DNA of 32,452 nt, taken from contig JAADIO010000024.1 in NCBI GenBank assembly GCA_013151235.1, forward strand, positions 1-32,452, read 5' to 3'. This document shows, one piece after another, positions 1-11,572 of this stretch (position 1 is its first letter; every line of letters starts with the position of its first letter). The position numbers and the translations under genes are program-made. Origin of the DNA: Deltaproteobacteria bacterium. GTDB lineage: Bacteria > CG2-30-53-67. The notes under the pieces were generated by a model. It was not told where the DNA came from and ran no database searches. It saw only the letters and a program-made list of their open reading frames with translations.

Positions 1-765
1 TTCAGCAAACTTCTTCTGAATATACCCCTTTCACTTACTGTGCATGCCCATGAGTTTTTCACAAATCCGAATCCCCGCCTTTTCAGGCATGCTCTCGGCA
101 AATGCGACCGTATTTTCCCGATCGCCGAGAAGTGGTCCTCTTTACTGAACAAGGAGTACGGCGTGCCCGCGGAGAAGATCTTTCTTAACCGTCTCTTTGT
201 GGACACCGACAGGTACCGGCCTTTGAAAGACCGCTTGGTCCTTTCTGTCGGGCGCTTTACCGAACGAAAGGGATTCCGGTATCTTATGCAGGCGGCCTCG
301 ATTCTGAAGGATGAGCCTGTGCATTTCGTTGTTGTCGGGTTCGGGCCCCTGGATGTCGGGGCGCTTGCCTACGAAATGGATGTTGAAGAGAAGGTTACGA
401 TTTTCCATAAACTTAATCAGGAACAACTAAGGTTGTTGTATCAGAAAGCCGATATCTATTGCTTGCCCTCCATCACTACAGATGAGGAAGGAACGGAAGG
501 CATTCCAGTTGTGCTTATGGAGGCCATGGCATGCGGCCTGCCTGTTGTCTCCACACGGTGTGGTGCCGTGGAAGAACTGGTGGAGGAGATCCTTGTTCCT
601 GAGCGCGACCCCGCAGCGCTGGCCGATGGGATAAGGCAAATAATCGGTTCGGACGAACTCGCCGACCGGTATGGCAAACGAAACCGCGAGATTGTGATGG
701 AGAAGTTTTCCGAAGATAATATCCGTCTTTTCATGTCGAATATACTGTCCATGCTGAATCCTTGA
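1..765 (+). CDS. Glycosyltransferase family 4, C-terminal part (5' truncated by window edge)
   Basis: The frame is open from base 1, so the gene begins outside the window; an in-frame GTG at 40 lies in the middle of a typical GT4 linker (HAHEFF) and is not a credible start. The visible part is the C-terminal Rossmann domain of a GT-B enzyme, which binds the nucleotide-sugar donor. SVGRFTERKGFRYLMQA is the usual domain opening, and EGIPVVLMEAMACGLPVVST contains an intact E-x7-E donor-binding motif. It should transfer a sugar in polysaccharide or O-antigen assembly at the cytoplasmic face of the membrane. It is on +, converging with the minus-strand glycan operon with only 12 bases between stop codons, so it belongs to a separate transcription unit. 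Sugar specificity cannot be read. Confidence 0.9.
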   Translation, partial: FSKLLLNIPLSLTVHAHEFFTNPNPRLFRHALGKCDRIFPIAEKWSSLLNKEYGVPAEKIFLNRLFVDTDRYRPLKDRLVLSVGRFTERKGFRYLMQAASILKDEPVHFVVVGFGPLDVGALAYEMDVEEKVTIFHKLNQEQLRLLYQKADIYCLPSITTDEEGTEGIPVVLMEAMACGLPVVSTRCGAVEELVEEILVPERDPAALADGIRQIIGSDELADRYGKRNREIVMEKFSEDNIRLFMSNILSMLNP

Positions 766-777
766 CATATGATATAT

Positions 778-1587
778 TCAGTGACGGTTTCCGGGCGGCA
801 ACGCAAGCCCATATTTGTGAAAGTATTTGATTAAACTGGCCAGGTGACGCCGCAGTGCAAGCGAAGGGAGCAGAAGCGGTCCCGATCTTGTACTCTCGTG
901 TTTTATGGCGTGGATGATCCTTGTTCCGGGGAAAAACTTGACTTTCCAGCCTTTCTGCCAGAACCGCCTGCACCAGTCGACATCTTCCATATACAGAAAG
1001 TAGCGTTCATCCATCCCTCCCGTATCCTCGACGGCTTCCTTCTTTACAAATACGGCGCCGCCTATAGCCCAGTCTATATCCCGTATGTTTTTTCGGTCGA
1101 AGTCCTTCATAAAATAGCGTCGATGTTCTTTCTGTTTCCTGTCCAAGACCTTGCCGATAAATGTGCGGACATACAGGAAGGTGTATATGTGAGGAAAACG
1201 TCTGCATACTTCCTGCCTGGTGCCGAAATGATCGGTAACTTCCGGTACGATCAGACCGATATCCTTGCCGGATGACAAGTAATCAACAGCGGCCTTGACC
1301 CCCGGTTCATCCAGGCGGGCGTCGGGGTTCAGTATCAGTATTGCAGGTGCCCGGGCAATGCGAAGGCCTGCGTTGACTCCCCCTGCGTAGCCCCGGTTCC
1401 TGTCCTGTAGTATCACTCTTGTATTTTTCAGCTTTTGCTTGAAAATCGCGGCTCTGTCAGGGTCGTATACGGAGTTGGAAACCACAATGGTCTCGTATGG
1501 AAGATCGCAATAGCGTTCTATGCTTCCAATGCATTCCAATACGTCGCCGAACGACTGATATTCCACGATGATGATTGAGAGGTCCAT
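778..1587 (-). CDS. Glycosyltransferase family 2 (rhamnosyltransferase-like)
   Basis: A 269-residue GT-A glycosyltransferase. It opens with MDLSIIIVEYQS, the usual GT2 beta strand, followed by NRGYAGGVNAG (about 64-74), the DxD-equivalent NPD (87-89) in LNPDARL, and the MDERYFLYMEDVDWCRR block (about 190-208) typical of WbbL/rhamnosyltransferase-like GT2 enzymes. It would transfer a sugar from an NDP donor to the growing lipid-linked repeat unit in the cytoplasm. It is the last gene of the minus-strand operon, 9 bases after the stop of the preceding GT4 gene; AAAGG lies a short distance before the ATG at 1587. The rhamnose assignment is a family tendency only. Confidence 0.9.
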   Translation of the reverse strand: MDLSIIIVEYQSFGDVLECIGSIERYCDLPYETIVVSNSVYDPDRAAIFKQKLKNTRVILQDRNRGYAGGVNAGLRIARAPAILILNPDARLDEPGVKAAVDYLSSGKDIGLIVPEVTDHFGTRQEVCRRFPHIYTFLYVRTFIGKVLDRKQKEHRRYFMKDFDRKNIRDIDWAIGGAVFVKKEAVEDTGGMDERYFLYMEDVDWCRRFWQKGWKVKFFPGTRIIHAIKHESTRSGPLLLPSLALRRHLASLIKYFHKYGLALPPGNRH

Positions 1588-1596
1588 ATTTGCCTT

Positions 1597-2706
1597 TTAT
1601 GTACGGTTACGGTTTTCCGAGAGTTCTCTGAAGATATCCATGTATTGGTCAACTATGTTATCCAGGTCGTGATATTTCTTTACATAGGATCGGGCGTTCT
1701 TGCCGTAGGCGATACGCAAGTCCCTGTTGCACATTAGGTCATTTATGTCGTTCAGGAACTGCCCGAATGTGCCGGAAACACGTCCCAGTCCGTGCTCTGT
1801 TATGACGTTGTCCGGGTCGACGGTAAGGCTGACGACCGGTGTCCCATGTTGCCATGCCTGGATGAATGTGTTCGGGAATCCCTCGTGAAGGGATGTGTTT
1901 ATGAGGAGGGCGGCGTTTGCGAAGTATTCATGTATTTCTTCAAAGGGCACATATCCGCGCAATGTCAGATTTTTTGTTCCATCTGCAGCGTAATTTTCAT
2001 GTTTGCCGGGGGCATAGTCCGCCACTATCATGTTGAAACGCAGTCCGGGAAGTGCTTTTGCCGCCCCGGGAACCAGCCAGGGGCGCTTGTCTTTCTGGTT
2101 GTTGCCGACCCAGAGCACTGATCCGTCATCTTTGCCGCTGTCTGAGGATTGCATGGAGTGTGCGTTACGTATAACGGTCACCGGACAGTTTGCCATGTTT
2201 CTGAATCCCGTCTTTTGCCTCAGGTTCTGGGCAACGATATAGTCAGCCATTTTCAGGCCGATGCGATAGGATATATAGTTGAACCAGTGGGCATGCTTCT
2301 TGAGAAAGACCACGTCCACATCTGTATCTTTCTGTCCTACTTGAATAAGTTTGCTTCCGGTCTTCCTGCAGAAGATCCCTAAAGGCATGAGTATGTTTCT
2401 CGGTATCTTGATGATGTGAATATCCGCCCCGATTCTTCGAAGTACCCTCCAGAGCGTAAGGATTAAAAAGGCGAAGCGGATCTTCTGCCCTGAGATGTCG
2501 AAAGGAACCTTGTGTATGTGAATGCCCTCCGAATACTCATATGCAGGCTGGCCGAAGTCGTCAACCAGGAAATGCACATCTATTCCCCTGCGTGCAAAGG
2601 CAGAGCCTATGGTTTTCATCTGCAGTTCGGCCCCCCCGGTCAGTCTTTCGGCAGGTATGCCTTTCAGTAACGGGTAGGCGTTAGGGCTGATAATGCAGAC
2701 TTTCAA
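1597..2706 (-). CDS. Glycosyltransferase family 4
   Basis: A 369-residue GT-B glycosyltransferase. The N-terminal domain has MKVCIISPNAYPLL and the GGAEL loop (24-28) common in GT4 proteins. The C-terminal domain has VLWVGNNQKDKRP and the donor-site block HEGFPNTFIQAWQHGTPVVS. The second glutamate of the usual E-x7-E motif is Gln here, a small departure from the family. The start is TTG at 2706, chosen because GGGGGGA sits 6-7 bases upstream and the next residues match the normal GT4 N-terminus. It lies between a sulfotransferase (17-base gap) and the GT2 gene (9-base gap) and is probably co-transcribed with both. Linkage and sugar are not predictable. Confidence 0.9.
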   Translation of the reverse strand: MKVCIISPNAYPLLKGIPAERLTGGAELQMKTIGSAFARRGIDVHFLVDDFGQPAYEYSEGIHIHKVPFDISGQKIRFAFLILTLWRVLRRIGADIHIIKIPRNILMPLGIFCRKTGSKLIQVGQKDTDVDVVFLKKHAHWFNYISYRIGLKMADYIVAQNLRQKTGFRNMANCPVTVIRNAHSMQSSDSGKDDGSVLWVGNNQKDKRPWLVPGAAKALPGLRFNMIVADYAPGKHENYAADGTKNLTLRGYVPFEEIHEYFANAALLINTSLHEGFPNTFIQAWQHGTPVVSLTVDPDNVITEHGLGRVSGTFGQFLNDINDLMCNRDLRIAYGKNARSYVKKYHDLDNIVDQYMDIFRELSENRNRT

Positions 2707-2723: not shown

Positions 2724-3560
2724 CTATAAGCTGTTTATATGATTGATCTGATGCAGGTATATCTGCACAATCGCTTTATGAGGCCATTTGAACTTGTTCT
2801 CCCAGTCACCTACGATCCCTTTACGGTAAAAGCTGTAGCCGCGTTTTTTGTTTTCCAGCCGGTAATGACTGCTTTTTATGCTGTAGAAGTTGGTTCTCAG
2901 ATTGTCGAGAAAGGAGTCGTCGTACGTTGTTTCCATAAAGTCGAATACACGGCCCATCGTTCCCTGGAAATCTTTTTTTATCTCTTCGTAATGGATGATA
3001 AGGCCGTCCTGCCCCTTTTTGATATCTTCGGCCCATTGTCTGTTCAGGATTATCCAATTACGGATGTGTCTGAGGAACAACAGAAAAGATCGTGGTGTGA
3101 AGGCCAGCAGGTTGTTCCGGACGTTTGTCTTCCATACGGAGAAGGATACGATTACATCGCGTACGTCTCTTACCAGAATGATTTTCTTGGATTCCGGAAA
3201 GTATTCCTGCAGAACCTTGAGATATGATAACTGTTCCGGGAATCTGCTTAGTGACTGCACAGCGGAGTATGCGGTTCTGTCACCGATATATCCTGTATAA
3301 TCGTTCGCTTCTTCGTCCGTCATCCCGACGTTGGCGGCCATCATTCGCCGTATCATGTCACGGGCACAGCTCCTGTACAGGCCTCTGTCCAACATGATCC
3401 CGTGGGAGATATGGTCGCCGGTTTTTATTCTGCTCATGTGCGTCAAGGCGGTGGAGGGTTTGAGTTCTCCGTTGATGCGTATTGACGTATGCTGGTTCAG
3501 GCATGTCTGCAGCCAGTTGGAACCTGAACGCTGCATGGAAACGACAAAAAATTCTTTCAT
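2724..3560 (-). CDS. Sulfotransferase (PAPS-dependent, Sulfotransfer_1-like)
   Basis: A 278-residue sulfotransferase that should move sulfate from PAPS to a glycan hydroxyl. FFVVSMQRSGSNWLQ (4-18) is the 5'-phosphosulfate-binding loop, KKIILVRDVRDVIVSF (125-140) is the 3'-phosphate-binding motif, and RKGIVGDWENKF near the C-terminus matches the RKGxxGDWKxxF signature of cytosolic-type sulfotransferases. I chose ATG 3560 because MKEFFVVS is the usual start for the family and leaves 26 bases after the upstream stop. A GTG at 3626 in frame adds 22 residues but has no ribosome site and would overlap the upstream gene. It is one of three sulfotransferases in this operon. Confidence 0.9.
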   Translation of the reverse strand: MKEFFVVSMQRSGSNWLQTCLNQHTSIRINGELKPSTALTHMSRIKTGDHISHGIMLDRGLYRSCARDMIRRMMAANVGMTDEEANDYTGYIGDRTAYSAVQSLSRFPEQLSYLKVLQEYFPESKKIILVRDVRDVIVSFSVWKTNVRNNLLAFTPRSFLLFLRHIRNWIILNRQWAEDIKKGQDGLIIHYEEIKKDFQGTMGRVFDFMETTYDDSFLDNLRTNFYSIKSSHYRLENKKRGYSFYRKGIVGDWENKFKWPHKAIVQIYLHQINHINSL

Positions 3561-3586
3561 ACCGGCCTTCTTTTTCGTGATCTGGA

Positions 3587-4768
3587 TTATATGCTCCGGA
3601 TAAAACGGAATATTTCTTTGCCCCACTTTATGTAGCCGAATGATCTTTCTACATGCAGTGAGGCTGCCTTACCCGTTTCTGCCGCCTTTCCCGGAGAGGA
3701 TAGCACTTCGGATATCTTCTTTGCAAAGCCTTCTATGGTAACGGTGTGATCGACGTAAGCGTTTATTCCGTCTGTGAAGTTATGTGCTATTTCGCCCACA
3801 TGTGAGGTGACGATAGGTTTCCCGAGGCTCATGTAATGCAGAATCTTCTGTGGAAATCTTCCCCGGTGCCTATCTGTGGATAAAAGCGGAAGTAGAAGCG
3901 CTGTAGATCTATGCTCAAGCCATCTGAATTCGGGTGGATTCAGGAAGCCGCAGAAAAAGACACGATCTTGTATGTCCAAATCCCTGGCAAGTAACATCCA
4001 GCCATTGAGTGCTTCCCGTGAATACTTGCCCGTAATGCAAAGCCTGAAGTTGTGTTTTACCAAGGCAAGAGCTCGCAAGGTGACCTCCAGCAGTTCTTTG
4101 TATTCTTTGCTGGCAGTGTATATCAGCAAAGGGGTGTCACCCAAGATTTTGTCAGCTATTGCCTGCGGCAGACGCACCTCAAGTTCCTGGTCTCCAGTTT
4201 TGGGGCCCCACAGAGCTGGGACATATAGAGTGCTCTTGAGTCTGTTCAGTTTGTGAAAGAGGAGATCGCTTATTACCATGAATGCATCCGATTCTTTCAG
4301 TATGTATCTCCATTGCCATCGTACAAGCGGGTTCCTTTTGTACGAAGGGAATGCGGGTGAGTATTCCATAATGTTTCCAATCATAGGAGTTTTCATCCTG
4401 TGTTTTATGATGACGGCGGGGATGAGTGTCTCGATCGCTCCTCTGAAAAGAATGATGACGCTTTCATCCTTTCCTGCAAGTTTTTTTAATACTCTGAAGA
4501 GCCGCCATGCAAGGCCGATGTTGTTCAACAGTTTGTCCAGTTTGTGGCTTCCCGCATAAAGCCGTCCTTTTGTGCCGGGATAGAGATCATAACGGCATCC
4601 TGACGGGAATGCCTCTTTATATGATTTATATTCTTCCGCCGTATGGCAGAGGTTTACCATGGATACCTTCATGCCGGCTGCAGCGATACCTTCCGCCATC
4701 CAATGTGCTTTCTCCATAACGGAAGGATTCCAACACGGCAGAACGATTATGCAATGATTAACCTCCAT
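3587..4768 (-). CDS. Divergent GT4-like glycosyltransferase
   Basis: A 393-residue GT-B-type protein. The N-terminal half has CWNPSVMEKAHWMAEGIAAAG, resembling the acceptor domain of GT4 enzymes. The C-terminal half has LLIYTASKEYKELLEVTLRA, FCGFLNPPEFRWLEH and LHYMSLGKPIVTSHVGEI. The donor-site E-x7-E motif is degenerate: the position usually held by EGFPxxxLEAM reads GRFPQKILHYM, lacking both glutamates. It may therefore use an atypical donor or mechanism. It overlaps the end of the upstream sulfotransferase gene by 11 bases, indicating translational coupling, and is followed by another sulfotransferase. It probably acts on the same glycan; specificity is unknown. Confidence 0.83.
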   Translation of the reverse strand: MEVNHCIIVLPCWNPSVMEKAHWMAEGIAAAGMKVSMVNLCHTAEEYKSYKEAFPSGCRYDLYPGTKGRLYAGSHKLDKLLNNIGLAWRLFRVLKKLAGKDESVIILFRGAIETLIPAVIIKHRMKTPMIGNIMEYSPAFPSYKRNPLVRWQWRYILKESDAFMVISDLLFHKLNRLKSTLYVPALWGPKTGDQELEVRLPQAIADKILGDTPLLIYTASKEYKELLEVTLRALALVKHNFRLCITGKYSREALNGWMLLARDLDIQDRVFFCGFLNPPEFRWLEHRSTALLLPLLSTDRHRGRFPQKILHYMSLGKPIVTSHVGEIAHNFTDGINAYVDHTVTIEGFAKKISEVLSSPGKAAETGKAASLHVERSFGYIKWGKEIFRFIRSI

Positions 4769-5696
4769 TTTTGGGAGACTCCATTATTGCTTGACCTGGG
4801 CTTATCCAACCTGCAAGGTCGATATCCAGAATCTTTTCCAGAAGCGCAATGTCAGGTGCGTAGAAATCTGCCAGTCTACAACGCAGGTCATTCGGCATGG
4901 GCGGCGGTCTGTACGGCTTACGGCTCCTCAGTGTGCCGAGCAGGAAATTGACTCCCGGTTTTATGATCCGGACATAGAATACTTGAGGCATATACCGGAC
5001 TATGAAAGATTTTATCCTGTCCCGGCCGGAAATAAACCCGAGAAGAAGGTGAATCGTCTTGTTTCTTGGTATGACGGAAACGTTATAATTCAATGATATG
5101 TCGGGCACGAACTCTGTGTCCACCGATAGGTAACTGAATATGTCCTGAAGAATACTTAACGGTTGAGTTTTGAAATGATCATACAGGTAGATTCTGAGCT
5201 GCTCTTTAGAGAAGAGAGCAAGGTACCTTTGGATCTGTTCGCCGTACAGCCCTCTTGCAAGGTATATGCTCTTTGTTGGGGCTGTATCCATTAAATATTT
5301 CTCATCCTGGATCACTTGGCGAAAGTCCGTCCTTTGCTCACGCCCTTCTCTTATCAGGAAAAGATATTGTGAATAAGCTCTTTCTATAGGGTTGCGAAGT
5401 ACAGCGATCATCTTTATGTCAGGGATATAGTGTTTGATTCTGGACGGTGCCTTGCGGCTGAAGAGATAATAGGTTGAGCCTTCCCCGACTGCTTTTTCGG
5501 ATTGCACGTTGTCAAAGAGTTTTTCATAGGTCTTGAGAGATGTGTAGGGATATCTGCCGCTCTTGTCTCCTTCGAAGGCAAAGAAACGCGGTTCTTTTTC
5601 CGGGCTCATGTAGATTTCGGGGTGCTGGCGCAGGTAGTGATAGAGGGATGTCGTGCCGGATTTCTGCGCCCCTATTATGAGAAAATTAGGCAGCAT
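4758..5696 (-). CDS. Sulfotransferase (heparan sulfate N-/O-sulfotransferase-like)
   Basis: A 312-residue sulfotransferase of the NDST/HS3ST-like type. NFLIIGAQKSGTTSLYHYL (4-22) is the PAPS 5'-phosphosulfate loop with the catalytic-type lysine at 12. EKEPRFFAF (33-41) is the acceptor-side motif of this subfamily, and MIAVLRNPIERAYSQY (96-111) binds the 3'-phosphate. The start at 5696 follows 25 bases after the end of the polymerase gene; the ribosome site is weak. It is clearly a different subfamily from the sulfotransferases at 2724 and 6986, so the three are not recent duplicates. It would sulfate a sugar of the cell-surface polymer before or during assembly in the cytoplasm. Confidence 0.92.
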   Translation of the reverse strand: MLPNFLIIGAQKSGTTSLYHYLRQHPEIYMSPEKEPRFFAFEGDKSGRYPYTSLKTYEKLFDNVQSEKAVGEGSTYYLFSRKAPSRIKHYIPDIKMIAVLRNPIERAYSQYLFLIREGREQRTDFRQVIQDEKYLMDTAPTKSIYLARGLYGEQIQRYLALFSKEQLRIYLYDHFKTQPLSILQDIFSYLSVDTEFVPDISLNYNVSVIPRNKTIHLLLGFISGRDRIKSFIVRYMPQVFYVRIIKPGVNFLLGTLRSRKPYRPPPMPNDLRCRLADFYAPDIALLEKILDIDLAGWISPGQAIMESPKNGG

Positions 5697-5721
5697 GGGT
5701 TAATCCATCAGCGGGCTGTTG

Positions 5722-6969
5722 TTATGCACTCTTGCCCATCGTCTTTTTAACGGTGTCCTTGTCATGTACTATCATGGAGAACATTATTCCAACCATGATG
5801 GCTATAAAGCGTAGGATTCTGCCCAAATCGGAGAAACTCCATGCCAGCAACAATACGCTCAGGGCCGTTACTGTTGCTTTACTGAACTCGGTGCGTTGTC
5901 CGGAGATGTTCAGGAATTTCCAAAAACTTCTCAACATGAAAAGCCATGCGGCGAAGCCTATGAGTCCGAGTTCCACGAGTATTTGCAGATATAGGTTGTG
6001 CGGCGGGAGAAGAATTCCCGTATGTTTGGCAAGTTGAAAGCGTGCGGTTTCAAAGCCGGTGCCCATAAATACATAGTATATATTGGAAAGGTATATTTTC
6101 TCTAATCCCAGCCAGATGGAGCTTCGTCCCGCCGAGATGGTTTTGACGTTGTTGCTGAAGGTTTGCTGGGCGATGCGGTCAAATGAGCTTCGAAGAATGT
6201 CATTGTGCACGAGAAAGCCTATAGCTATGAATACTGTACCGAATATGAAGAGAAAGGCAACTGTTTTGAAATCCTTGTGATGGATTGTAATCCATCCAAG
6301 AACAATAACCATTGCCAGAATACCACCTCTTGAGCCGGACATCAGTATGAATGCAATCTCTGAGGCGAGAGCCAGCATTTGCAGAGCTCCGGCTGTCTTG
6401 ATCTCCGCTGTCGTTATCATGTGATAGGTTATCGGCATGAGAAAACAGAAAAAGTAGGCCATCTGGTTGGGGTTTGCGAATGTGCCTGTATATCGTCCGC
6501 TGTAGAGATCTCCGGATACTGTCGGAAGATTGAGTACTCCGGCTCGCATGGCGATAAATGCCGCCACGTTTACAAGTACGAATAAAACAATCCCTGCCTG
6601 CAGGAATTTTCTCGCCTGTGATGCTGTGTCGATAAGCAGGAACATGAGGATATACAGCACCACAGGTTCTATGAAACGGTAGCGCAGTTGCCTGATCTGG
6701 TCGAAAAGGCTCATGTCCATGCGTCCCAATAAAACATTTAACGCTATGCTTACACAAAGTATTGTGAGAAAAATGAGCAGGCTGGATATGCACGGGATTT
6801 TTTTTCTATGCAAATTCTTTTTTGCGGCTTCGGAAAAAAGTATGTAAATAAGAATGGCATACATCAAAAGTGTCTTCGGTGTGATGCCTCGCATGATTCC
6901 CAGGTTGATGGGGTACAGCCCGCCTATAATTATTGCGAGGAGCAGCAGGATAAAGAGTGTATATTTCAT
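5722..6969 (-). CDS. O-antigen polymerase/ligase family membrane protein (Wzy/WaaL-like)
   Basis: A 415-residue polytopic membrane protein, hydrophobic from residue 1 (MKYTLFILLLLAIIIGGLYPI) with about ten to twelve predicted membrane segments. The large periplasmic loop lies in the second half. It contains GRSSIWLGLEKIYLS and PPHNLYLQILVELGLIGF, the hallmark of the Wzy_C/O-antigen ligase superfamily, where the PHNxYL..xxELGL block is conserved in both polymerases and WaaL ligases. Beside a Wzx-like flippase, polymerase is the more likely role, but sequence alone does not separate the two. It sits 16 bases after the upstream sulfotransferase, with GGTGA before the ATG at 6969. Confidence 0.87.
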   Translation of the reverse strand: MKYTLFILLLLAIIIGGLYPINLGIMRGITPKTLLMYAILIYILFSEAAKKNLHRKKIPCISSLLIFLTILCVSIALNVLLGRMDMSLFDQIRQLRYRFIEPVVLYILMFLLIDTASQARKFLQAGIVLFVLVNVAAFIAMRAGVLNLPTVSGDLYSGRYTGTFANPNQMAYFFCFLMPITYHMITTAEIKTAGALQMLALASEIAFILMSGSRGGILAMVIVLGWITIHHKDFKTVAFLFIFGTVFIAIGFLVHNDILRSSFDRIAQQTFSNNVKTISAGRSSIWLGLEKIYLSNIYYVFMGTGFETARFQLAKHTGILLPPHNLYLQILVELGLIGFAAWLFMLRSFWKFLNISGQRTEFSKATVTALSVLLLAWSFSDLGRILRFIAIMVGIMFSMIVHDKDTVKKTMGKSA

Positions 6970-6985
6970 TTTGTCACCGATGTGC

Positions 6986-7960
6986 TCAAAAATGCATGAA
7001 GAGATTGTGCTTTTCTTTAAAGTGCTGCCGTATTTTATCCGTTATCAATTTCATCTCAAATATGGTGTATAAATGGCATTTCGCAAGGTTAAAACGGTCG
7101 GCCAGGCTGCCTCTGCCGGTTGGTTGAAAAGAACGTATGTCATCTATTAGTTGTGCCATATCGTAACCGAAAGACCGTATTGTATTCTCTCCCAACCGTT
7201 GTATATATTTAAGCGCGTATTTTTGCCTGAATGGCGTGTTTAAGATTCTGCGCCATTTGTGCAGAGATTCTTCGCTTATATCCTCATATTTGGTATAGCC
7301 GACTTTGTCTCCCATCCCGGTAATAGGCACTTTTGTGAATTTTTCGATCATGGTTTCGCTGAACGGGATGTCCATGTACTCGCATATGGATTGGAGTACC
7401 GGCTCCGGAGTGCGGACAAGTTCTTCATACTGGATTGCTATGCTCTTGTTTTTTAATGTTGCCGATGCGCGTGATAAAAGAGAAGGCCCCTTGTATAGAT
7501 CAATCTTGTGCCACGGATCTCCGAGCCGGTTACCGTAGAAGGATGCTATGGTTGAGGCCAGGACAGAGATCGGGTTTCTGTACAGGAATATGAATTTACC
7601 GTTCGGGAATATTCGGGCAATATCCTCGGCTATTAGATAATAGCGCGGAGTCTTGTCCAGGAAGAAACGGGCGTTGTTCTTGTTCAGCTTGGAGTATAGC
7701 GTTTCCGAAAAGTTTCTTATCGCTTCATAGTAATCTTGCCTGCCGTTGGGCAGATTGTCCAACAGGTGTTTTACGGTACGCCGTAACGACATAAAACTGA
7801 ACTCCGCATATACCCCATGATCCTTGAGTGTATAAACAAGAGGGATCAGGAACCATGGCTCGGAGGTGGTTTCCACGTCAGGGTGTGCCGCCAACATTCT
7901 TTGAAGTAATGTAGAACCTGATCGTGGCATAGAAAATATGAAAACAGGTGTTGTTCCCAT
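6986..7960 (-). CDS. Sulfotransferase (Sulfotransfer_3-like)
   Basis: A 324-residue sulfotransferase. VFIFSMPRSGSTLLQRML (6-23) is the PAPS 5'-phosphosulfate loop. The TSEPWFL stretch (about 32-38), LDKTPRYY (101-108) and FIFLYRNPISVLAS (123-136) match the Sulfotransfer_3 type, in which the last motif binds the 3'-phosphate. It begins one base after the flippase stop codon, so it is almost certainly translated from the same message. The C-terminal third (from about 210) has no motif I recognise and probably forms the acceptor-binding lid. Its role would be sulfation of a sugar in the repeat unit. It is divergent from the other two sulfotransferases of the operon. Confidence 0.92.
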   Translation of the reverse strand: MGTTPVFIFSMPRSGSTLLQRMLAAHPDVETTSEPWFLIPLVYTLKDHGVYAEFSFMSLRRTVKHLLDNLPNGRQDYYEAIRNFSETLYSKLNKNNARFFLDKTPRYYLIAEDIARIFPNGKFIFLYRNPISVLASTIASFYGNRLGDPWHKIDLYKGPSLLSRASATLKNKSIAIQYEELVRTPEPVLQSICEYMDIPFSETMIEKFTKVPITGMGDKVGYTKYEDISEESLHKWRRILNTPFRQKYALKYIQRLGENTIRSFGYDMAQLIDDIRSFQPTGRGSLADRFNLAKCHLYTIFEMKLITDKIRQHFKEKHNLFMHF

Positions 7961-7961
7961 T

Positions 7962-9290
7962 TCAGGCAGCCTTCCCGGATATTGTTGTCAAATCGTTTTT
8001 GTATGTAATAAAGATTGCTCCGACTATGATGGATATCTCAACAAGAACATTCGCCGACACGAAGTAAGCGATCACATCTTCCGGTTTTCCCGTCAGCTTG
8101 TAACCAAGCCATATTGCAGATATCGACAGCAGGGCCTTTGCCAACGTGAAGAAAACTTTCATATGTTGCTTTTTGAAAACTTCATATGTCGTGTTGGCCG
8201 GTGCCACTGCGAACAAGACCAGAAACCAGGGAGACAGTATACGTACATATACGCCTGCCTGAAACCATTTTTTGCCGAAAATGGTTCCGAACAATGGTTC
8301 TGCATAGATCATAAGCAGAAGGAAAGGTATGCAGCCGGTTATGAATAAGACGCCGGTCGTTTTTATGAGTGACGGCAATATACGGGCACCATGATTGTAT
8401 TCATGTGCGATCCGTTGAAAAAATACATTCTGAACGGACATGGACATAATGTTCAACGGTCTTCGTATAATGCGGTTCCCCAAACTGTACAGGCCAACTA
8501 TTACAGGAGAGAAGATTATCGAAAAAACCAGTACTATCAGATTTTGTGTAATGACCGTTAATATGGCGTTGCAAGTAGCATATAGCGGGAACTGTATATA
8601 TTCCACGGCCACGGCTTTTATTGATTTGCTGTTCAGTGATCTCCTGATTTCGGCAAAGTGGAAAAGGTCGGGTGATCGAATTATTATCGCCAATGATACC
8701 ATGAAACCTGTTATAGTGCCTAATATTAGGCCTCCAGCCGTAGCGCCGGCAAAGAGAGCTATTGCGATCTTTGCAACAGAGGCCGAAGCCGCTTCCCCGA
8801 TTCTGGCAAATGCAATAGAGCGAAATCCCTTCTGGCGGATGTGCAACGATTTCACGATATTGAAAATGCCTACCAGCAACAATCCTGCGGGGACCCAGTA
8901 TAACCACGATATGGTGTATGCTCCTTTCAGGAGTGATAGTAACCTGCCGGAAAAAGCGAATATAAGCGATGTTGAAAGCAAGGCTATAACAAGAAGGATT
9001 ATTAATGACAGAAATGCTATATTGTATGCGCTTGAATTGTTTTTGGGTAAGATGATTGCGCGTTCATAGCAAAGTGTGCCGACTTTGGAAACTATGTTGA
9101 CGTATGATAGAAATAGTGCGAATAAACCGAAGTTCTCAGGTGTATATAATCGCGTTAATATAGGCGAGGCCGCAAAGGATATTACCTGTGCGATGAAGGC
9201 TCCACTTACAAGTGCAAGAACGTTTTTTGAGAACCGCGATGTGATCAGTTTTGACGTCGCATTTATCATAGGGGTCACCCAAGGGGTCAT
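7962..9290 (-). CDS. wzx: Polysaccharide repeat-unit flippase, Wzx/PST family
   Basis: A 442-residue integral membrane protein with 12-14 hydrophobic segments. The N-terminal block ALVSGAFIAQVISFAASPIL followed by TRLYTPENFGLFAL is the classical opening of PST/MATE-like Wzx flippases, and the YSLGNRIIRRPLNI region is also typical. It would flip undecaprenyl-diphosphate-linked repeat units across the inner membrane. It is the first gene of the minus-strand glycan operon. Two starts are possible: ATG 9290 and ATG 9269. The seven extra codons of the longer form are encoded by a small direct repeat (GGGGTCA twice), which makes 9269 slightly more attractive; neither has a good ribosome site. Confidence 0.9.
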   Translation of the reverse strand: MTPWVTPMINATSKLITSRFSKNVLALVSGAFIAQVISFAASPILTRLYTPENFGLFALFLSYVNIVSKVGTLCYERAIILPKNNSSAYNIAFLSLIILLVIALLSTSLIFAFSGRLLSLLKGAYTISWLYWVPAGLLLVGIFNIVKSLHIRQKGFRSIAFARIGEAASASVAKIAIALFAGATAGGLILGTITGFMVSLAIIIRSPDLFHFAEIRRSLNSKSIKAVAVEYIQFPLYATCNAILTVITQNLIVLVFSIIFSPVIVGLYSLGNRIIRRPLNIMSMSVQNVFFQRIAHEYNHGARILPSLIKTTGVLFITGCIPFLLLMIYAEPLFGTIFGKKWFQAGVYVRILSPWFLVLFAVAPANTTYEVFKKQHMKVFFTLAKALLSISAIWLGYKLTGKPEDVIAYFVSANVLVEISIIVGAIFITYKNDLTTISGKAA

Positions 9291-9530
9291 GCGCTATAAT
9301 TTTGTCAAGCAGAAAATTTAAGAGAAAGTTCTTCCCCCAACCCCGAAGAGGGGTCAAGTCTGCTCTTGGCTCTTCTTGCCGGGGGGGGACACTCCAGGGT
9401 CCCCCCTCACTCCTTCGGTACACTCAGGCAGGCCTGACCCTCTCCCCGAGGGGTGAGAGGGAACAGAAAATGGGAAGTTCGAATCTTCCCCCTCTGCTCC
9501 CCCTTCTTCGAAGGGGATGGGATCTCTACG
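9291..9530. other. Repeat-filled intergenic region between wzx and the HEPN gene
   Basis: About 240 bases with no credible gene. It holds copy A of the recurrent intergenic repeat (9341-9430), a hairpin built from CCCTCTCCCC and GGGGTGAGAGGG (9438-9461), and a second hairpin CCCCTTC-TTC-GAAGGGG (9500-9516). The last lies just downstream of the minus-strand HEPN stop codon and could stabilise that transcript's 3' end, but there is no T-run, so I do not call it an intrinsic terminator. Confidence 0.6.
9341..9430 (+). repeat. Intergenic repeat copy A
   Basis: About 90 bases sharing the core AGGGGTCAAGTCTGCT, then TTGCCGGGGGG, ACACTCCA, GGTCCCCCCTCAC and TCCTTCGGTACACTCAGG with copy B at 10417. 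A CCCC-GAAGA-GGGG hairpin opens it, and a G-run/C-run hairpin (GGGGGGA...TCCCCCC) follows. It has the same orientation as copies B and C. No protein can be read from it. Confidence 0.8.
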
Positions 9531-9935
9531 TTATTTTTCCTCTTCTATGTGGGTTTCCGCCCAGGCGACTACCAATTCGGCCTTTTGCAAGGCGTCTCTG
9601 AATTCGTCTTCGGTCACGGGTTCAGCAGGGCCGGGGTAACGGGACTCGACTGCGTAGTTTGTTAACTCGGCCGCAGCGTGGATATTGTCGGGTATAGGGA
9701 TTCCATGATTTGTGATTGAGGTCAATAACTCAGCAAGATCATGTACGAACCGGAAGGGGATGTCATGTGCAATCAGTATGGCCTTCAGGGATTTTTCGGC
9801 GGCCTGCTGGGCGTCAAAGCAGAGATCTTCCCAGAAGATCTCTGCTGTCTTGGGCTGTTTGGCACGGGCGAGGTTGCTCTTGGCTCGCTTGATCCATTCC
9901 CGAGCAGATCCGATCCCTTCGGAGTCAGGCGGCAT
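9531..9935 (-). CDS. HEPN domain protein (partner of MNT nucleotidyltransferase)
   Basis: A 134-residue all-helical HEPN domain protein. AREWIKRAKSNLARAK opens the first helix, DAQQAAEKSLKAILIAH is the central helix, and VHDLAELL and ESRYPG are conserved in HEPN proteins that pair with minimal nucleotidyltransferases. The start is ATG 9935, because GGAGGT lies seven bases upstream of it. An in-frame ATG at 9950 would use part of that ribosome site as its own codon. It overlaps the MNT gene by 11 bases. HEPN-MNT pairs are known toxin-antitoxin modules in which MNT modifies the HEPN partner. The canonical R-x4-6-H RNase motif is not seen here, so RNase toxicity is not assured. Confidence 0.9.
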   Translation of the reverse strand: MPPDSEGIGSAREWIKRAKSNLARAKQPKTAEIFWEDLCFDAQQAAEKSLKAILIAHDIPFRFVHDLAELLTSITNHGIPIPDNIHAAAELTNYAVESRYPGPAEPVTEDEFRDALQKAELVVAWAETHIEEEK

Positions 9936-10248
9936 AGAGCAACCTCCCATTTTTCAATGCAGGTTGGATGATCATGCCGACGTGATCCTTGAATTTCTCA
10001 ATATCATCCTCGGTGACTACGATAATGTCTGCGGCAAAGCCGACTCCCACCAGGTTACGGTAAATCTTCTGAGCGCTTTTCCGCCTATGCTGACCTGAAG
10101 CGACTACTACCAAAAGATCCAGATCACTGTTCGGTCCCATTTCGCCACGTACTGCCGAGCCGAAAAGAATAATTTTTCTGGGATTTGCTGTGCTGATAAT
10201 ACGTGCAACTATTTGGTCTATAATTCTCTCTATAGGCATATTCTTCAT
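9925..10248 (-). CDS. Minimal nucleotidyltransferase (MNT, MntA-like antitoxin)
   Basis: A 107-residue polymerase-beta-like nucleotidyltransferase. The catalytic G-S-x10-D-x-D motif is complete in FGSAVRGEMGPNSDLDLLVV (about residues 29-48), and a third acidic residue follows in FAADIIVV. In characterised MntA/HepT systems this enzyme adds AMP to the HEPN protein and neutralises it. By analogy it is the antitoxin of the overlapping HEPN gene. The ATG at 10248 is preceded by GAGAG at five bases; an ATG at 10239 is an alternative. It is the first gene of a two-gene minus-strand operon with its own promoter at 10297-10324. Confidence 0.92.
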   Translation of the reverse strand: MKNMPIERIIDQIVARIISTANPRKIILFGSAVRGEMGPNSDLDLLVVVASGQHRRKSAQKIYRNLVGVGFAADIIVVTEDDIEKFKDHVGMIIQPALKNGRLLYAA

Positions 10249-10296
10249 GGATGCTCTCTTCTCATCGTCTGGAATCTCATCCGGAACTTTTGCATT

Positions 10297-10324
10297 ATTG
10301 TAATGTACTTTTTATAATAATCAA
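10297..10324 (-). promoter_or_regulatory. Sigma-70 promoter of the MNT/HEPN operon with -10 inverted repeat
   Basis: On the minus strand, TTGATT (10319-10324) is followed 16 bases later by TACAAT (10297-10302). The -10 box lies inside the inverted repeat CATTA-CAA-TAATG (10293-10305). Predicted transcription start is near 10290, about 40 bases before the MNT ATG. The inverted repeat is a plausible autoregulatory operator; this is inference. Confidence 0.6.
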
Positions 10325-10416
10325 GCCTTTTCCGCGAGGGATGAACCTGGGGCCGGGCTTTTATGTTCAAAATCCGGGAAAGTTCCATTGTCTGGCAATT
10401 GGAGATATGTTATATT

Positions 10417-10515
10417 GACCCCGAAAGGGGTCAAGTCTGCTTTTGACTCTTCTTGCCGGGGGGAACACTCCAAGGTCCCCCCTCACTCCTTCGGTACACT
10501 CAGGACAGGCCCTTC
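10417..10515 (+). repeat. Intergenic repeat copy B
   Basis: The best-preserved copy. It opens with a perfect hairpin GACCCC-GAAA-GGGGTC (10417-10432) whose loop is a GNRA tetraloop, followed by AAGTCTGCT and a second hairpin of GGGGGGA (10458-10464) against TCCCCCC (10476-10482). It then runs into CTCCTTCGGTACACTCAGGA. It matches copy A over nearly its whole length in the same orientation. Confidence 0.82.
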
Positions 10516-10532
10516 GGCGTTTCGTCCGATCT

Positions 10533-10565
10533 CCGTTCACCCTTCGACCGGCTCAGGGCGAACGG
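10533..10565. repeat. Palindromic repeat of the PEPVEG-encoding type
   Basis: CCGTTCACCC (10533-10542) and GGGCGAACGG (10556-10565) form a ten-base stem with one mismatch around TTCGACCGGCTCA. Translated on the minus strand it gives PEPVEG, the recurrent spurious peptide of such intergenic palindromes in many environmental bacterial genomes. Confidence 0.8.
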
Positions 10566-10608
10566 TGTAAGTGATTGATATTCCGTTCGTGTGGTTCAAC
10601 CGGCTTCC

Positions 10609-10691
10609 GAGCATGGTGAGCTTGCCGAACCACATGCTCAGGACAGGCCCTTCGACCGGCTCAGGACAGGCCCGCTTTTCTTTCCCGGCGG
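10609..10691. repeat. Palindrome plus tandem and dispersed direct repeats
   Basis: GAGCATG (10609-10615) pairs with CATGCTC (10633-10639). CTCAGGACAGGCCC is then present twice (10637-10650 and 10660-10673) around another TTCGACCGG core. Bases 10662-10691 form a 30-base unit repeated exactly at 11440-11469, beyond mazEF. Confidence 0.78.
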
Positions 10692-10752
10692 AGGAGAAGG
10701 AAGAGTAGATCGGAAGATTGAGCCTCTCCTCACCAAAAGATATTTTTAATCC

Positions 10753-10791
10753 TTGACATCCTGTACTTTCGTAATTACAATGTAGATACAT
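10753..10791 (+). promoter_or_regulatory. Strong sigma-70 promoter of mazEF with operator-like inverted repeat
   Basis: TTGACA (10753-10758), exactly 17 bases, then TACAAT (10776-10781). The -10 box overlaps the dyad ATGTA-GA-TACAT (10780-10791), and a GTAATTAC palindrome (10771-10778) abuts it. Transcription should start near 10788. MazE-type antitoxins repress their own promoters, so these dyads are the natural operator candidates. Confidence 0.75.
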
Positions 10792-10812
10792 GCCAGATAG
10801 GGGAGCTGAATC

Positions 10813-11067
10813 ATGAGAGCACGTGTTGTGAAAATAGGCAATTCCCAGGGGATCCGCATTCCGAAACCCATTCTTGAGCAGACAGGAATCATGGAGGATG
10901 TTGAGCTTAGGGTTGAGAAGGATCAGATTATTATTCGTCCGGTCCCGGATCCAAGGGCCGGTTGGGATGCGGCTTTCAAATCAATGTCCGAGAAAAATGA
11001 TGATGTGCTGATTGACGGGGACGAAAATATCTCACATTCCTGGGATGAAGAAGAATGGCAATGGTAG
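10813..11067 (+). CDS. mazE: MazE-like antitoxin (AbrB/MazE/SpoVT family)
   Basis: An 84-residue protein. Residues 1-45 form the swapped-hairpin AbrB/MazE DNA-binding fold: ARVVKIGNSQGIRIPKPILEQ is the family signature, followed by VELRVEKDQIIIRPV. The acidic C-terminal tail (DGDENISHSWDEEEWQW) is the disordered toxin-binding segment that in MazE proteins wraps around MazF. GGGGAG lies seven bases before the ATG. The stop codon lies inside the toxin gene (13-base overlap). It should neutralise MazF in the cytoplasm and repress its own promoter at 10753-10781. Confidence 0.94.
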   Translation: MRARVVKIGNSQGIRIPKPILEQTGIMEDVELRVEKDQIIIRPVPDPRAGWDAAFKSMSEKNDDVLIDGDENISHSWDEEEWQW

Positions 11068-11384
11068 TCAAGAGGTTTGATGTCTATTTGGTCAATCTCG
11101 ATCCGACGGTTGGATCTGAGATCCGGAAAACCCGGCCCTGCTTAGTGATCTCACCTGATGAAATGAACAGACATATCCGGACCGTCATTGTTGCTCCGAT
11201 GACTACGGCAGATAAGGACTATCCCACACGGGTGCCATGCAGGTTTCAGAAGAGAAATGGGCGAATCGTCCTGGATCAGATTCGAACAATAGACAAGACA
11301 CGACTTTTGAAAAAGACGGGTTCTATTAATGCCGATACCCAGGTAGAGGTTATTTCCGTTTTGCAACGGTTATTTGCATTTTAG
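11055..11384 (+). CDS. mazF: MazF/PemK-family mRNA interferase toxin
   Basis: A 109-residue toxin of the PemK/MazF family. RFDVYLVNLDPTVGSEIRKTRPCLVIS (about 7-33) carries the conserved GSEIRKTRPCLV core, with the arginine used for catalysis in MazF proteins. VIVAPMTTADKDYPTRV carries the second conserved strand and threonine. VLDQIRTIDKTRL is the third signature block. It is predicted to be a sequence-specific endoribonuclease that cleaves mRNA when freed from MazE. It overlaps mazE by 13 bases and starts at ATG 11055; ATG 11061 is possible. Length and motifs are complete, so it is probably active. Confidence 0.95.
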   Translation: MAMVVKRFDVYLVNLDPTVGSEIRKTRPCLVISPDEMNRHIRTVIVAPMTTADKDYPTRVPCRFQKRNGRIVLDQIRTIDKTRLLKKTGSINADTQVEVISVLQRLFAF

Positions 11385-11393
11385 TGGCGGAGG

Positions 11394-11469
11394 CAAAGGG
11401 GTCTGCTTTTGGCTTTTGTTGACGGTACTGAACCCAGATCAGGACAGGCCCGCTTTTCTTTCCCGGCGG
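11394..11469 (+). repeat. Degenerate intergenic repeat copy D and 30-base direct repeat
   Basis: AAAGGGGTC-TGCTTTTGGC is a shortened version of the core found in copies A-C. Bases 11440-11469 repeat 10662-10691 exactly. The mazEF pair therefore lies between two copies of this 30-base unit in direct orientation. Confidence 0.72.
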
Positions 11470-11475
11470 GGAGAG

Positions 11476-11572
11476 GGGGCGAAAGGGGTCAAGTCTGCTC
11501 TTGACTCACATTGCCGAGGGGGATACTCACAAGCCCCCCTCATCACGGCCTTCTCCCCGGCGGAGAGAAGGA
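11476..11572 (+). repeat. Intergenic repeat copy C
   Basis: GAAAGGGGTCAAGTCTGCTC then TTGACTC, TTGCCGAGGGGGATACTC and CCCCCCTC, in the same orientation as copies A and B. The second hairpin survives although its arms differ from A and B (GAGGGGG against CCCCCTC). It ends in a hairpin CCTTCTC-N7-GAGAGAAGG. Confidence 0.75.

Follow-up and report, generated by a model that had tools for sequence, protein, structure and literature searches.

The contig C24 (32,452 bp), analysed at full length and referred to here as the window, belongs to a genome of 2.62 Mb in 73 contigs that is listed as 99% complete and 0% contaminated. Its minus strand carries a glycan operon of eight genes (9290–778), with gaps of –40 to +25 bp between neighbouring genes. 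The operon opens with a Wzx-type flippase (7962..9290; PF13440, 65.5 bits, and PF01943), which has ~10 hydrophobic segments and a weak NCBIfam match to MOP flippases. There follow ST-C, a Sulfotransfer_3 protein of CurM/TPST-like character (6986..7960; PF13469, 126.5 bits), a Wzy_C-family membrane protein that is either a polymerase or possibly a ligase (5722..6969; PF04932, 50.5 bits), ST-B, an NDST/HS3ST-like sulfotransferase of the 3rnl group (4758..5696; PF13469 and PF00685), a GT4-type glycosyltransferase (3587..4768; PF00534, 55 bits) and ST-A, a sulfotransferase with a C-terminal RKGxxGDW motif (2724..3626; PF00685, 73.7 bits). A second GT4-type enzyme (1597..2706; PF13692, 42.9 bits) and a rhamnosyltransferase-like GT2-type glycosyltransferase (778..1587; PF00535, 48.3 bits) complete the operon; the latter scores 48 bits with TIGR01556, under that model's cut-off of 200. 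Intact ORFs, domain matches and gene spacing thus bear out the earlier note's description of three complete sulfotransferases in one operon with Wzx, Wzy_C and glycosyltransferases.

On the far side of the operon's last gene, a GT4-type glycosyltransferase gene on the plus strand (1..765; PF00534, 116 bits), its 5′ end open at the contig end, converges on the operon and probably belongs to a neighbouring glycan cluster. A search for a contig joining at base 1 matched the first 150 bases of C24 in no other contig of the genome. Directly upstream of the operon lies a HEPN/MNT-type toxin–antitoxin pair, consisting of a HEPN-domain protein (9531–9950, minus strand) and a nucleotidyltransferase (9925–10248, minus strand), and a MazE-like antitoxin with a PemK/MazF-like toxin (10813–11384, plus strand) is located between the operon and sigma-54/flagellar genes. 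Around both pairs, a dispersed repeat family (GGGGTCAAGTCTGCTCTTG... and CTCAGGACAGGCCC...) occupies 9345–11539 in two to four copies up to ~1 kb apart. The remainder (12027–32450, plus strand) encodes two sets of histidine kinase and sigma-54 response regulator, after which comes a flagellar cluster with rod proteins, FliF, FliG, a FliI-like ATPase, FliJ, FliK and FlgD. An Rfam search of the window gave no match, and a promoter and terminator scan gave a signal near shuffle background.

Each of the three sulfotransferases passes the curated Pfam cut-offs of both PF00685 and PF13469, with respective scores of 73.7 and 64.5 bits for ST-A, 41.8 and 42.9 bits for ST-B, and 40.6 and 126.5 bits for ST-C; none of them shows a sign of membrane segments. 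As the earlier note had claimed, motif positions and alignment reveal an intact 5′-phosphosulfate loop and 3′-phosphate motif in all three: QRSGSNW (residue 32), LVRDVRDVIVS (151) and RKGIVGDW (268) in ST-A, QKSGTTS (11), EKEPRFF (33) and LRNPIERAYS (100) in ST-B, and PRSGST (12) and YRNPISVLAS (127) in ST-C. The nearest solved relatives in the PDB are members of the SULT family for ST-A (3.7e-8), 3rnl (6.5e-57) and then NDST (NDST1, 8.2e-14) and HS3ST for ST-B, and CurM/OLS sulfotransferases (3.9e-18) and then TPST for ST-C, matching the three subfamily labels assigned previously. ST-C additionally has a partial NoeE match in NCBIfam. The description of the three as unrelated goes too far: by sequence they are remote members of one superfamily, and ‘distantly related’ is the better term. 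Pairwise BLASTP returned only partial alignments, with no full-length match in any pair (the best, ST-A/ST-C, spans 148 aa at E=2e-4, and ST-B/ST-C aligns over just 28 aa).

In an alignment of ten relatives, K34 and E35 of ST-B are invariant, E35 being a candidate catalytic base; E34 of ST-C (SEPWF) aligns near this residue and is a candidate for the same role. For ST-A, the catalytic base could not be placed by alignment, and a single-sequence AlphaFold model computed without alignment had a pLDDT of 43, too low for use. The annotated start of ST-A, a GTG, gives a 40-bp overlap with the upstream gene; translation could equally well begin at an internal ATG ~23 codons further in. The best relative of ST-A in 327 genomes has only 30% identity over 189 aa, and no match was found in plasmids. 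Neither ST-A nor ST-B matched anything in the one available congener, where ST-C has only remote matches (29% and 26% identity). In our survey, ST-C has its closest relative in L216, a glycan cluster from a cyanobacterium (3e-50); on plasmids, its best relative lies in a small-molecule-like cluster. Structural kinship does not settle the acceptors: the likeness of ST-B to NDST/HS3ST shows neither N-sulfation nor a glucosamine acceptor, and that of ST-C to CurM leaves room for a different acceptor.

Sulfotransferases of this kind draw on PAPS, and the observation that the window holds no PAPS synthesis genes is correct for C24, which is cut at base 1; the genome search located them on contig C26. 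There, a bifunctional ATP sulfurylase/APS kinase, the PAPS synthase Sat-CysC (NF004040, 825 bits vs. the NCBIfam equivalog cut-off of 669), is directly preceded by CysQ (TIGR01331, 306 bits vs. a cut-off of 229). The polysaccharide locus that contains both genes also encodes a small sulfotransferase, a polyprenyl glycosylphosphotransferase and an UpxY antiterminator, and it includes genes for GDP-mannose, GDP-fucose and dTDP-glucose. Further left on C26 are an OPX protein, a PCP, a second initiating transferase and a tyrosine autokinase, so that the initiating transferase, PCP and OPX missing from the window are present in the genome. By contrast, no PAPS reductase (PF01507) was found in this 99% complete genome, while the same search was positive in 14 of 14 control genomes. 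Assimilation therefore does not explain PAPS, whose presence is most simply explained by a role as sulfation donor. This PAPS-pathway test had been set beforehand, and its outcome, with Sat-CysC and CysQ in another polysaccharide locus and no reductase, favours the reading of the operon as one for a sulfated Wzx/Wzy glycan.

A stand-alone second Sat adjoins qmoC on contig C55, an arrangement that fits dissimilatory sulfate metabolism. Sat-CysC itself recurs among relatives: the congener has a copy at 85% identity, two of four further family members have one at 73%, and each of the two remaining class members has one at 54%. CysQ lies beside it in the congener and in both family members that bear it. 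A lasting PAPS module combined with changing sulfotransferases and glycosyltransferases would be the expected look of variable surface-glycan loci. Elsewhere in the genome, contig C28 encodes a further PF13469 protein (L037:4164-5099, minus strand), whose neighbours include a ketoacyl-synthase/acyltransferase multidomain protein and an HlyD-like protein; the product in this case is possibly not a glycan but a sulfated lipid or polyketide.

On this evidence the operon very probably builds a sulfate-decorated surface polymer. More specifically, we hold with good confidence that 9290–778 supplies the strain-specific part of a pathway for a surface polysaccharide of the Wzx/Wzy type, whose repeat unit is sulfated in the cytoplasm. 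An initiating transferase encoded on C26 would load undecaprenyl phosphate and start a lipid-linked unit, which the GT2 and the two GT4 enzymes would extend. ST-A, ST-B and ST-C would then move sulfate from PAPS to different hydroxyls of the repeat unit, the acceptor of ST-B perhaps being an amine; sulfation is placed in the cytoplasm, the compartment that contains PAPS. Wzx would flip the sulfated unit, the Wzy_C protein would polymerise the flipped units, and the PCP and OPX proteins would provide length control and export. Sat-CysC would make the PAPS, with CysQ clearing the inhibitory by-product PAP. The flippase and the Wzy-type protein are encoded in the cluster itself (PF13440 and PF04932, both above cut-off), and the PAPS, OPX and PCP genes on a different contig; we infer that the genes of C26 and C24 share one polymer, as we do the order of steps, the acceptors and the activity of the enzymes. 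Up to three sulfates per repeat unit would follow from this scheme, and three distinct sulfated positions are plausible, although the number of sulfotransferases need not equal the number of sulfates.

A pathway in which only one or two of the three enzymes modify the glycan, another having a lipid or small-molecule acceptor or being redundant or inactive, is a possibility to be taken seriously, albeit one we doubt. ST-C resembles CurM/OLS sulfotransferases, of which CurM acts on a polyketide intermediate; the PF13469 protein on C28 shows that the genome has another such enzyme near a polyketide or fatty-acid-like synthase; and deletion of xssE barely changed synechan accumulation and bloom formation in the cyanobacterial system discussed below (PMC8205485). 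Against this, all three proteins are intact, retain their PAPS motifs and are embedded within the glycan operon, and the nearest relative of ST-C in the survey likewise sits in a glycan cluster.

Membership in Wzy_C does not tell polymerase from ligase, as the family covers both, and the protein at 5722..6969 is, from its domain match, a putative polymerase or possibly a ligase. A product that is a sulfated glycan but not a polymer, with this protein acting as a ligase or O-oligosaccharyltransferase that transfers an oligosaccharide onto lipid A core or onto a protein, possibly flagellin, nevertheless appears improbable to us. The protein does match PEP_O_lig_1 and TfpM weakly, and flagellar and sigma-54 regulatory genes share the contig with the operon. 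Yet the ligase models score far below cut-off (PEP_O_lig_1, 49 vs. 188 bits; the other, 25 vs. 600 bits), the PCP, tyrosine kinase and OPX proteins of the genome fit polymer export, and 2.7 kb of toxin–antitoxin genes and repeats lie between the operon and the regulatory and flagellar genes, which are encoded on the other strand. Finally, an assembly or annotation artefact, be it P-loop proteins of other function or a chimeric contig, is conceivable for a 73-contig assembly with a contig cut at base 1, but is highly implausible given that each protein passes two curated cut-offs and carries sulfotransferase-specific 3′-phosphate motifs, that the operon genes overlap or abut, and that contamination is listed as 0%.

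Several known systems resemble the sulfated Wzx/Wzy pathway proposed here. One is the synechan (xss) cluster of Synechocystis sp. PCC 6803, a Wzx/Wzy-type locus in which glycosyltransferases are accompanied by two sulfotransferases from distinct subfamilies; its polymer is chemically sulfated with approximately two sulfates per eight sugars (PMC8205485), and here, the numbers of enzymes and of sulfates roughly fit (PMC8205485). In this locus (L157), XssA resembles ST-B (5e-17) and XssE resembles ST-C, and we found no counterpart of ST-A. It differs from the present operon in having two sulfotransferases rather than three, and an initiating transferase and PCP in the same cluster. Its authors also noted that the polysaccharide clusters of cyanobacteria contain many sulfotransferase genes (PMC8205485). 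The wps-1 cluster of Actinoplanes missouriensis likewise combines Wzx/Wzy/Wzz with two sulfotransferases of different families (PMC13390465), but again lacks a third, is actinobacterial and is known from its genes (PMC13390465). Structurally proven cases are two sulfated capsules. In Vibrio sp. KMM 8419, for which the sulfated structure was solved, the capsule locus holds three sulfotransferase genes and cysNDC (PMC11641403), and the authors regard PAPS and sulfotransferase genes in one locus as a hallmark of sulfated polysaccharides (PMC11641403); the sulfated capsule of Cobetia marina KMM 1449 is associated with a locus containing cysN/C, cysD and cysQ (PMC11766843). Unlike the operon described here, the Vibrio and Cobetia systems rely on ABC-transporter export and on an ATP sulfurylase of the separate-subunit CysND type instead of a fused Sat-CysC, and their loci are much larger.

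To gauge recurrence, we surveyed genomes for similar loci. PF13469 and PF00685 were matched in 116 and 107 of 386 sampled genomes, respectively. ST-B alone as query retrieved no relatives in the genome scan, which was repeated with an ST-B alignment and then, across the named genomes, yielded 78 loci. By ORF calling and phmmer, 19 of these have three or more sulfotransferases within ~10 kb and 37 have two or more, figures that describe recurrence and not general frequency, the sample having been picked by similarity to ST-B, being rich in cyanobacteria and containing some genomes twice. Those loci that were checked with Pfam carry three or four sulfotransferases. For instance, L196 of Xenococcaceae cyanobacterium MO_188.B29 has Wzx, Wzy_C and glycosyltransferases, as our operon does, along with three sulfotransferases from at least two subfamilies; these enzymes are consecutive there instead of alternating with other genes. 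L176 of Gloeocapsopsis crepidinum LEGE 06123, on the same contig as L137, encodes a PCP, Wzy_C, glycosyltransferases and three sulfotransferases; no ST-A-type enzyme was found in L196 or in L137/L176. L216 contains an ATP sulfurylase, an APS kinase, four sulfotransferases, an ABC exporter and glycosyltransferases. Another four sulfotransferases occur in L136 (G046 C44), which also encodes a MurJ-type flippase, a protein that matches Wzy_C weakly, a GH79-like protein and a dockerin-bearing sulfatase; this locus may both build and trim a sulfated glycan. Overall, clusters of two to four sulfotransferases are a common feature of cyanobacteria, Rubrobacter, Chloroflexi and other groups. In class relatives (L042, L045 and L046; G001 C206, G007 C30 and G007 C2), sulfotransferase domains were seen in frames of 560–750 aa, three of them in tandem in G007 C2, and these domains are possibly fused to others.

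The genome and locus surveys thus rule out that three sulfotransferases per locus are rare, and the earlier note's view of this arrangement as distinctive gives way to these counts and to the published cases (PMC8205485, PMC13390465, PMC11641403). The operon is a solid but ordinary example of known multi-sulfotransferase loci. A bolder reading, in which a lineage whose sulfate genes are of the dissimilatory type (Sat beside QmoC) keeps a PAPS synthase solely for surface-glycan sulfation, and ST-A represents a new glycan sulfotransferase subfamily adding a third, chemically distinct sulfate per repeat unit, strikes us as speculative and on balance unlikely. Among relatives of ST-B, two to four sulfotransferases per locus are to be expected and are not exceptional. 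A dedicated PAPS synthase without PAPS reductase constitutes a clean genomic signature of sulfation, and the genome, which is probably that of a sulfate-metabolising anaerobe, adds one more organism predicted to make sulfated surface glycans.
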